A stretch of 64,000 bases of DNA. Source: Bifidobacterium asteroides. GTDB taxonomy: Bacteria; Actinomycetota; Actinomycetes; Actinomycetales; Bifidobacteriaceae. The stretch covers positions 1,178,001 to 1,242,000 of the forward strand of contig NZ_CP048272.1 of the NCBI RefSeq assembly GCF_019469425.1, given 5' to 3'. Position 1 is the first letter of the stretch. The number at the start of each line of letters is the position of its first letter. Position numbers and translations under genes: made by a program. A model generated the notes under the pieces. That model made no database searches. It was not told the origin of the DNA and was given only the letters and a program-made list of their open reading frames with translations. This document shows, piece by piece, positions 2,321-6,026 of this stretch.

Positions 2321-3475
2321 TCACTTGGTCAGCTGATCGAATCGTTCCTGGGTCAGGTAGTTCGCCTTGACCAGCTCGGTCAGGTTGTCCTTGGTGATGG
2401 CCTGGGGATCCAGCAGCTTCGAGGGCACCTTGATGCTGTTGTTGTCAAAGGTGCCGTTGATGCCGGTAACCTTCTTGCCCTGGGCGATTTCGATGATCAT
2501 GTCGTAAACGGCCTGGGCCAGCTTGTTGACGTCCTTGAAGACTGTCTGGCCCTGCAGTCCCTTGGAGATATTGGCCACGGAGATCTCCATGGCGTCCTGC
2601 CCGGTGATCTTGGGCCAGTTGTCGGTATTGGGCTGGATGTCGGGCCTCTTGGACTGGATGGCGTTGATGACCCCCTGGCTGATGCCGTCATAGGGGCTCA
2701 GCACGGCATCCAGCCGCTCGCCGTGGGCGTAGGTCGAATCAAGAATGGACTCCATGTCCTTCTGGGCCTGCTCGGTCTTCCAGGACTGGACGGAGATCTT
2801 CTGCCAGTCGGAGAGTTTGAAGTCCTTGGTCACACCGCCGCCATGCTGGGAGGGGCTGACCAGAACGCCCGACTTGAAGTAGGGCTGCAGCAGCTCCCAG
2901 GCGCCTTTGAAGAAGTACTTGGCGTTGTTGTCGTCGGGAGAACCGGTAAAGAGCTCAATATTGAATGGACCCTTGGCTCCGTTTTTGAGACCCAGCTGGT
3001 CGATCAGCCAGTTGGCCTCCAGCACGCCGGTGCGCTCAAGCTGGAATGTCGCATAGTAGTCGACGGCCTTGGTGTTCATGATCAGCCGGTCATAAGCGAT
3101 GACCTTGGCCCCGGCATCCTTGGCCTTCTCGACAGCAGGCCCCACAGCGGTGCCGTCCTTGGAGGCCACCACCACGATCTTGGCGCCCTTGTTGACCATG
3201 TTCTCGATGTCGGCATTCTGCTGGGCGGGCTTGTCATCCGCGAAGGAGAGCACCACCTTGTAGCCTGCCTTCTCCAGTTTGTTCTTGAGGTTGTTGCCAT
3301 CCTTGTTCCAACGCTCCTCGGACTTGGTGGGCATGGACACGCCGATGGTGGCGCCTTTGCTGATCGCCCCTCCCTCCTGGGAGGAACTGGAGGCTCGTGA
3401 ACTTCCGCAAGCGCCCAGTCCGGTCAGCATGGCGACGCCGATAACCGCCGCCATAGCTCGTTGCATCATCTTCAT
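2321..3475 (-). CDS. Sugar ABC transporter substrate-binding lipoprotein (ChvE type)
   Basis: Extracellular sugar receptor of the importer, 384 residues. The first 23 residues form a lipoprotein signal: Lys/Arg near the start, a hydrophobic run and a lipobox LGAC with Cys23, followed by a Ser-rich linker. The mature part begins TIGVSMPTKSEERW and has IENMVNKGAKIVVVASKDGTAV and an ITGQDAMEISV stretch, all typical of the ChvE/periplasmic-binding-protein group for multiple sugars. The ATG at 3475 has an AAGGAG site 5 bases upstream; in-frame codons further up lack one. It is the first gene of the operon, 77 bases ahead of the ATPase, and is preceded by a good promoter at 3552-3580. Lipid anchoring fits a Gram-positive cell without an outer membrane. 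Confidence 0.94.
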   Translation of the reverse strand: MKMMQRAMAAVIGVAMLTGLGACGSSRASSSSQEGGAISKGATIGVSMPTKSEERWNKDGNNLKNKLEKAGYKVVLSFADDKPAQQNADIENMVNKGAKIVVVASKDGTAVGPAVEKAKDAGAKVIAYDRLIMNTKAVDYYATFQLERTGVLEANWLIDQLGLKNGAKGPFNIELFTGSPDDNNAKYFFKGAWELLQPYFKSGVLVSPSQHGGGVTKDFKLSDWQKISVQSWKTEQAQKDMESILDSTYAHGERLDAVLSPYDGISQGVINAIQSKRPDIQPNTDNWPKITGQDAMEISVANISKGLQGQTVFKDVNKLAQAVYDMIIEIAQGKKVTGINGTFDNNSIKVPSKLLDPQAITKDNLTELVKANYLTQERFDQLTK

Positions 3476-3551: not shown

Positions 3552-3580
3552 AGCATACCCATTTGTGTTAACTTTATCAA
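3552..3580 (-). promoter_or_regulatory. Promoter of the sugar ABC operon
   Basis: On the minus strand, TTGATA (3575-3580) and TATGCT (3552-3557) are separated by exactly 17 bases. This is a near-consensus housekeeping sigma promoter lying 77 bases upstream of the binding-protein ATG. Confidence 0.55.
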
Positions 3581-3590
3581 TTCAATAAGG
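3572..3590. promoter_or_regulatory. Imperfect dyad over the -35 box, candidate ROK operator
   Basis: CTTTAT and ATAAGG arms flank a short AT core, with TTAT and ATAA as the conserved halves. It overlaps the -35 box of the sugar operon, where a repressor would block transcription. The AT-rich TTAT/ATAA form resembles known ROK (NagC/Mlc) operators; binding by the adjacent ROK protein is inferred. Confidence 0.35.
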
Positions 3591-3710: not shown

Positions 3711-4903
3711 ATGGCACATCGATTGTTCGGTTCACAGTCCTCATTGCGTGAGGCCAACCGTGCACTACTGCTGGATACGATCCGAAGATTCGGCGCCATG
3801 ACCCAGATCGAATTGGCTGAAAATACCGGGCTCTCAACAGCAACTGTCTCCAACCTGGTACGTCTGATGGGCGATCAGGGACTTCTGGAGACATCCTCCA
3901 CCACAAGAAACGGCCGCCGCGCCACGCTGGTCATGCTGGCCCGCCGCAAGGGCCTCGGGGTCGGGCTCTACATCGGCCGCCACGAGATGCGACTGGAAGT
4001 AGTCGACGCCAGCCATGCCATACTGGCAGAGCATGACATGGCTCTGCCACGCCAGCACAAACCGGACACAACCCTGGAACGGGCCATGATCCTGATCAAG
4101 GAGACGCTGACTTCCATCGGTGCCCAATCGGATGAGCTTGTCGGTCTGGGCCTGGCCATGGGGGCCCCTGTGGACTGCAGAACTCACCAGCTGGCCATTC
4201 CCGGCATCCTGCGAGGCTGGGACAAACAGGATCTGATAGGCACCTTCCATGAGGCTTTTCAGGTGCCGGTCCAAGTGGACAACGACGCCAACTTCTCAGC
4301 CATGGCCGAGCTGAGAATGGGCGCAGCAGTCGGCAGACGAAACTTCGTCTACATCCACGCCAACGACGGGGTGGGCGCGGGAATCGTCATCAACGGCGAG
4401 ATGTGGCGGGGCACCACCGGGCTTGCAGGCGAGATAGGCCATGTTCAAGTGGACCCCTTGGGCGATATCTGCATCTGCGGCAACCGCGGATGCCTGAATA
4501 CGGTGGTGGACGAGAGCCGCTTGGTCTCCTTGCTCAGCGTGACCCACGGGAACATGACTCTGGAGGATCTGGTGGCCAATGCCGTCAAGGGGACCCAGGG
4601 TGCAGACGGATCGTGGGAGATGCGGCCATCCGCATCGGCAATGTAGTGGCCGATCTTTGCAACGCCGTGGATCCCGAAGTAGTGGTCCTGGGAGGCATCC
4701 TGAGCACAACCGAAGACGTCTTTCTGGATCCCCTCCGAGAGACTCTTCAGCGCTTGCTTTTCCCTGACGCCATGGTTCCCATGGAAGTGCTCCCTGCCCG
4801 CTATCCGATTACCGGATCGGCTCTAGGAGCAGCTATGATGGCTGTCGATAGCGTCAACGAACACATTGATGTGTCCACAAAATCCGCAGGTCGATCATCG
4901 TAG
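3711..4903 (+). pseudogene. ROK-family transcriptional regulator, single-base frameshift
   Basis: NagC/XylR-type sugar-responsive repressor. From ATG 3711 the frame gives a winged HTH (about residues 10-65, with TQIELAENTGLSTATVSNLV), then the ROK domain with DNDANFSAMAE, GVGAGIVINGE, GEIGHVQVDP and the zinc motif CICGNRGC. That frame stops at TAG 4647. The family sequence resumes one frame back as GDPGCRRIVGDAAIRIGNVV, NAVDPEVVVLGG and so on to TAG 4901. Restoring one G in the four-G run at 4589-4592 joins both halves into a 397-residue protein of normal size. This is either a decayed gene, a switchable G-tract or a base-calling error. The residue after the zinc motif is Asn where Glu is usual. 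The gene is divergent from the sugar operon and directly upstream of an orphan sugar ATPase. Confidence 0.85.
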
Positions 4904-4918
4904 AGGAGGTGACCTGGA

Positions 4919-5758
4919 TTGCATGAAACCGCTGTCTTGATGCAGATGGACGACCTCTGCATCAGGTTCGGATTCGTTGAGGCCCTCAAACACATAAACC
5001 TGGATATTCGTCAACACGAAGTGCTCGCCGTCGTGGGCGACAATGGAGCAGGCAAGTCCACTCTGGTCAGGATTTTGTCCGGATTGATCCGACCCGACCA
5101 GGGTACCTTGTTCTGGAAGGGCCGACCGACCAGCATTCCCTCGATCAGAGTCGCCAATCAGTTGGGCATTGCAGCCGTCTTCCAGGGGCAGGACTTCTGC
5201 GACAACCTGGATGTCTCCTCCAACCTCTTCCTAGGCAAGGAACTGCGCGATCGACACCATCGTCGCGATGACGAAGCCATGCGTCGGCGCACCCGTCAGG
5301 TCCTCCAGTCGCTGTCCTCCCCTATCCGCGTGGGCCAACCCATGGCCACCCTTTCCTTGGGACAAAAACAGACCGTATCGATCGCCAGGACCCTGCTGGA
5401 CAATCCCGAGCTGATCCTGCTGGACGAGCCGACGGCCTCCTTATCCGTCATGCAGTCCGCCGAGGTGCTCAACTACATCAAGCGCATGCGTTCAGAGGGC
5501 CGCAGCATCCTTATGGTCTGCCACGATCTGCCGGACGTTTTCGCGGTTTCTGACCGCATAGCAGTCATGCGTCAGGGACGGCTGGTAGGAGTTCTTCCTA
5601 CGGCCAAGACATCTTATGAAACTGTAATAGCGCTGATTTCAGGCATTGATCCTGAGGACGTCATACAGGACCAGGGCCAGCTGGATGCCATGGCCAGGGC
5701 CAACGCCCGCGCCCACGCCCTGCGCGGTACCAGAAAGGCCCTGCCCGAGAAATCATGA
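4919..5758 (+). CDS. Single-domain sugar ABC ATPase (FrcA type)
   Basis: Cytoplasmic ATPase of 279 residues with GDNGAGKST (Walker A), LSLGQKQTV (signature), LILLDEPTASL (Walker B) and VCHDLPDV (H-loop), so it looks catalytically complete. It resembles the one-domain ATPases of fructose/ribose-type CUT2 importers, not the two-domain partner across the divergent region. The TTG at 4919 has a GGAGGT site 8 bases upstream; an in-frame ATG at 4940 has none. It lies 15 bases after the ROK stop, in an apparent operon with ROK and a small membrane protein. No permease or binding protein is encoded beside it, so it may serve the divergent transporter or a permease elsewhere. The role is inferred. Confidence 0.88.
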   Translation: MHETAVLMQMDDLCIRFGFVEALKHINLDIRQHEVLAVVGDNGAGKSTLVRILSGLIRPDQGTLFWKGRPTSIPSIRVANQLGIAAVFQGQDFCDNLDVSSNLFLGKELRDRHHRRDDEAMRRRTRQVLQSLSSPIRVGQPMATLSLGQKQTVSIARTLLDNPELILLDEPTASLSVMQSAEVLNYIKRMRSEGRSILMVCHDLPDVFAVSDRIAVMRQGRLVGVLPTAKTSYETVIALISGIDPEDVIQDQGQLDAMARANARAHALRGTRKALPEKS

Positions 5759-5774: not shown

Positions 5775-6026
5775 ATGCAGCTGACCGATACCCTTCCGAC
5801 CATCGTCTGTGCCCTGATAGGACTGGCAGTGGGACTGATAGACGGACTTTTGCCAAAGAGCAACGACCGGCAGACCGATTCTCAGCAACGCTGGACAGCG
5901 GTTTTCTCCCTGATAGGAACCGGCATGGTAGTAATTCTCATTCTGCTGGGACGTGACCTGACCTCCTGGGTGGCCATCGGCGCTGTGGTCCTAGGGTTGT
6001 TGCTCGGCATGATACCACCCCACTGA
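5775..6026 (+). CDS. Small membrane protein, three predicted helices, unknown function
   Basis: The 83 residues contain hydrophobic segments at about 6-26, 42-58 and 63-80. A short polar loop around residues 28-41 (KSNDRQTDSQQRW) separates the first two. An AAAGGA site sits 8 bases before the ATG. It starts 16 bases after the orphan sugar ATPase and is probably cotranscribed with ROK and that ATPase. I recognise no family. It is too small to be a CUT2 permease; an accessory or assembly subunit is possible but unproven. Confidence 0.75.
   Translation: MQLTDTLPTIVCALIGLAVGLIDGLLPKSNDRQTDSQQRWTAVFSLIGTGMVVILILLGRDLTSWVAIGAVVLGLLLGMIPPH

Follow-up and report, generated by a model that had tools for sequence, protein, structure and literature searches.

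In a 64,000-nt stretch (the window) of a Bifidobacterium asteroides genome that forms a single contig of 2,233,706 bases, a gene for a ROK-family regulator is interrupted by the absence of one G from a short G run. The gene probably is the local counterpart of AraU and lies divergently to a sugar importer operon. This one-base break in a local importer regulator most likely reflects a recent loss confined to this strain, possibly an assembly error, and is in either case an ordinary kind of event. Comparison with relatives can flag and date such a likely break but does not separate mutations of very young age from errors in the reads. Should the cell itself lack the base, the strain would be a natural AraU null and offer a cheap test of the predicted, unproven AraU regulon; if it does not, one public genome is corrected.

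Reading frame of the ROK gene here and in relatives

Translation from the start codon (ATG at 3711) proceeds as in orthologues to ...VANAVKG, leaves the frame after residue 294, and continues through 17 foreign residues, TQGADGSWEMRPSASAM, to a stop at 4644–4646. The truncated ORF (3711–4646, + strand), delimited by translation and profile search, thus encodes 294 native and 17 aberrant residues, a 311-aa product compared to 397 aa in orthologues. The frameshift site is a run of four Gs (GGGG at 4589–4592, + strand) that was read in the window sequence within AAGGGGACC. Downstream of it, profile search and comparison with relatives identified the out-of-frame remainder of the gene (4593–4903, + strand, with the stop codon TAG at 4901–4903), which corresponds to the C-terminal 103 residues of the orthologues of 397 aa. 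The ROK domain (PF00480) is accordingly split over two frames: the truncated ORF retains the winged helix and most of the domain (profile positions 2–216, 146.9 bits), and the C-terminal ROK lobe (profile positions 204–292, 39.2 bits) is encoded in another frame, both pieces scoring above the cut-off of 22.9. ORFs and Pfam profile therefore agree with the preliminary description, made from the sequence alone, which had placed the lobe following VANAVKG in a different frame. A search for a second, intact copy of the gene in the same genome returned none.

Relatives were taken from GTDB contigs, where the matches came from other species only; the closest named ones are the bee-gut bacteria Bifidobacterium sp. 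B4142, B. apousia, B. choladohabitans, B. mizhiense, and B. asteroides. In alignments over 2,089 nt, the missing base at 4589–4592 is the sole indel relative to each of six close relatives, all of which are longer by exactly one base at this position. Five of them carry GGGGG and the sixth, B. asteroides ESL0200, has AAAGGAG; all six encode an intact 397-aa protein with the motif KGDPGCRR. This bears out the original proposals that one missing G breaks the regulator and that the full-length protein has 397 residues. Across the genus, the frame is uninterrupted in all 13 complete orthologues; the stop scored in two of these fits their own slightly shorter C-terminus, which closes open frames of 392 aa. 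The preliminary description had named as evidence against a break any intact relative that ends in the short C-terminus of the 311-aa form, and no such protein was found among the 13 orthologues.

Age and origin of the missing base

The frameshift lies in a segment (3768–4710) that is nearly identical to Bifidobacterium sp. B4142, with 4 substitutions in 943 bp, in contrast to a divergence of about 6% from B4142 over most of the locus. Save for the extra G, the two genomes agree at every base over the 68 nt that precede the run and the 118 nt that follow it. Over the 878 nt of the gene upstream of the run, we counted 9 differences to B4142 compared to 45 to 62 substitutions to the next four relatives. 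The simplest reading of these sequence comparisons is that the segment was recently exchanged between bee-gut bifidobacteria, with a B4142-like partner; as B4142 has five Gs, the deletion would then be younger than the exchange. Substitutions 3′ of the site, scored against all relatives, fall mostly in third codon positions of the lost frame, and three of the private changes of the window downstream of the site are synonymous and one is non-synonymous. Such a coding-type pattern indicates that selection on the frame either continues or ended only very recently, and the deletion is thus either young or not real.

Between these two readings, we favor a genuine loss-of-function mutation, strain-specific and ordinary in kind, which we consider probable, over an isolated base-calling error; this weighting is a judgement rather than a computed posterior. 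The preliminary description had named base-calling error as the main rival, and it keeps that place as the possible but less probable case of a sequencing or consensus error, in which the cell would have five Gs and an intact 397-aa AraU. One base too few in a G run is a classic long-read error, and the lack of decay downstream of the site would fit such an error, although it fits a very young mutation equally well.

To assess the quality of the assembly, 800 kb of this genome were compared with B4142 (G019) and with a third genome (G024) in a gene-based census that replaced a loose indel scan full of spurious frames. A three-genome homopolymer test with exact flanks is powerless at the ROK site, where the G024 flank differs, and pairwise alignment was used instead. 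Internally broken conserved genes numbered 7 of 410 here, 7 of 400 in B4142 and 3 of 312 in G024; these raw counts include artefacts of start choice and antisense frames, and our argument rests on the Pfam-supported cases only. Speaking against an error, the rate of broken genes equals that of B4142, and the search of the 800 kb for homopolymer frameshifts inside conserved genes yielded the ROK site alone. Moreover, B4142 matches this genome at 442 of 450 five-base G/C runs. The other run differences that were inspected lie outside genes, at gene starts, or are common to G024, and several of them are natural since they are intergenic or shared with the third genome. On the other side, five-base G/C runs are one base short six times here versus once in B4142, and the Pfam-supported single-base frameshifts in this genome are both deletions, which together give weak hints of an error bias. 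Overall, the assembly is not error-rich.

Several observations bear on how readily genes of these bacteria break. B4142, whose contig names (NODE) indicate that it is probably a short-read assembly, has lost one T in a transporter gene, the same kind of event as the ROK break; comparable young frameshifts appear to be a natural occurrence, with approximately one to a few among 400 genes. MutS was sought in the genome and is absent, and NucS is present. NucS leaves short indels uncorrected (PMC8228993), and its presence without MutS renders a single loss by slippage more credible, with no dedicated switch implied. The ROK gene resembles strain-specific single-base frameshift pseudogenes in lacking one base of a short homopolymer, in being young, and in affecting a dispensable regulator, and nothing sets it apart from them beyond the identity of the gene.

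Elsewhere in this genome, the gene of an OmpR-type response regulator (1529181–1529872, locus L055) carries a one-base deletion outside any long run; at a distance of about 2 kb, a beta-eliminating-lyase gene (1526046–1527071, same locus) is interrupted by a nonsense codon. Both are intact in B4142, and the two breaks look like genuine losses rather than homopolymer errors. In the complete genome G024, single-base insertions break the genes for a transaldolase, a glycosyltransferase, and ilvD (L076, L085, and L093), a pattern that suggests assembly errors. As ilvD and transaldolase are not lost lightly, G024 is probably affected by errors and a poor yardstick; by the same token, such errors probably exist in public genomes of the group, a point in favor of an error at the ROK site as well.

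Slippage at the G run as an alternative

The preliminary description also considered that the G tract might switch the gene on and off. Phase variation by slippage of the run, toggling the regulator within the population, would be compatible with four Gs here versus five in relatives, with slippage being left uncorrected by NucS (PMC8228993), and with a C5/C6 variable tract mentioned for meningococcus (PMC5084427). However, the tract of 4–5 nt is far below the usual length: homopolymers at contingency loci have about 6–8 bases or more, and a meningococcal survey set its lower limit at 6 bases and observed that tracts varied often from 8 bases upward (PMC5084427). Neither is the tract kept in relatives, as would be expected of a contingency locus with on and off states, but broken or shorter in other species (AAAGGAG in ESL0200, AGGGAG in G026, GCGGAT in G011), and all relative genomes are in the ON state. 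Runs of this size are also common genome-wide, with 4,417 four-base and 1,079 five-base G/C runs in 800 kb. We thus regard a switch as very improbable and have given up this part of the earlier interpretation.

It is just as hard to credit a programmed −1 ribosomal or transcriptional slippage at AAGGGGA that restores some full-length functional protein: coding-type substitutions are kept in the downstream frame and GGGG allows a −1 slip by a GGG-reading tRNA, but an in-frame X XXY YYZ heptamer is absent (C AAG GGG), slippage is neither needed by nor present in any relative, and recency alone accounts for the substitution pattern.

A probable AraU-type regulator and its divergent importer operon

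The N-terminal piece of the ROK gene carries a MarR-type winged helix (MarR/HTH_24) at residues 17–69, and the combination of winged helix and ROK domain marks the gene as a regulator and not as a sugar kinase. Because the ORF ends at 311 aa, no single polypeptide holds the complete ROK fold, and this copy is classed as a broken member of the family. The gene aligns with Mlc over positions 9–378 (E about 1e-38), including the C-x-C-x4-C cluster, and near full-length alignments were obtained with Mlc/NagC-type repressors (E. coli Mlc, PDB 1z6r and 3bp8; Listeria Lmo0178, 5f7p). These belong to another subgroup of regulators, and the gene here is truncated at about the equivalent of Mlc residue 307.

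In Bifidobacteriaceae, the ROK regulator AraU is encoded divergently from the arabinose ABC importer araFGH and has a local regulon (PMC5928203). Like AraU, the regulator described here combines a ROK domain with an N-terminal winged helix, is transcribed divergently from an operon for a sugar ABC importer, and has a single palindromic site in the shared promoter; unlike AraU, its gene is frameshifted. We therefore consider it probably an AraU-type regulator, matched to B. longum BL1693 by arrangement and not by sequence.

The presumed target operon begins with a gene (2321–3475, − strand) that encodes a ChvE/AraF-type sugar-binding protein (NF040907 ChvE, 8.7e-111) and starts with the ATG at 3475, preceded by GGAG. 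This gene is followed by one for a GguA/AraG-type sugar ABC ATPase (687–2324, − strand; NF040905 GguA, 1.3e-241) and by a permease-like gene in the GguB/AraH position (1–690, − strand), which is cut by the window edge and was assigned from its ORF by position and hydrophobicity only. The divergent order of binding protein, ABC ATPase, and permease-like gene corresponds to the AraU arrangement.

Promoter comparison revealed a candidate operator, TTGTGTTAACTTTATCAATTCAA (3563–3585, + strand), which contains the imperfect palindrome TTGNGTTNA-N5-TCAANNCAA and, as for AraU, is conserved in the shared promoter. With one mismatch allowed, the pattern has one match in this genome compared to 0.01 expected, and in nine of eleven genomes (this one and eight relatives) it occurs once, in the same divergent promoter. 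As the pattern was derived from these promoters, a match in the promoter is by construction, but its single occurrence genome-wide is not. With one palindrome per genome, located only at this promoter, the regulon appears to be local, as published for AraU. The regulator probably controls an arabinose (pentose) importer; in line with this, araA is located elsewhere in the same genome, making arabinose catabolism at least plausible.

According to the reading that we favor, one G was recently lost from a five-G run in the AraU-type gene of this strain, so that ribosomes would run out of frame after residue 294 and be halted 17 codons on. The product would have the DNA-binding winged helix but lack the C-terminal quarter. 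Of the 103 residues lost, 35 are invariant across nine orthologues, and the missing part is predicted by AlphaFold, with moderate confidence (pLDDT 68), to comprise a long helix (296–320), a strand, further helices, and a C-terminal helix. A literature search for published C-terminal truncations of Mlc yielded none that was usable, and we infer the effect of the truncation from fold and conservation. On these grounds the shortened protein is most likely inactive, either through instability or through failure to assemble and function.

Provided that AraU acts as a repressor, its loss would release both the importer operon and araU itself from sugar control and leave them constitutively expressed. 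The preliminary description had predicted a constitutive target operon; the divergent importer with its candidate operator now gives that operon a name, and the repressor role, the identity of the sugar, and the constitutive expression are each plausible. That the loss is both real and selected, giving a bee-gut lineage with a constitutive pentose importer through inactivation of AraU soon after the exchange of the B4142-like segment, we regard as unlikely.

Downstream of the ROK gene, ORF and profile searches identified a gene for a single-domain sugar-type ABC ATPase (4919–5758, + strand), which is intact, conserved in relatives, and probably co-transcribed with the regulator gene. Its 279-aa product is similar to the N-terminal half of sugar ATPases with two domains, and the gene, which adjoins the ROK gene, is not accompanied by its own permease gene. 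Further downstream in the same operon, a small ORF (5775–6026, + strand) for a membrane-protein-like product is unusually diverged (about 81% identity) and encodes 83 aa, whereas its counterparts in relatives have 106 aa. An insertion of two bases close to its end alters the C-terminus and represents a second indel in the operon of the ROK gene.
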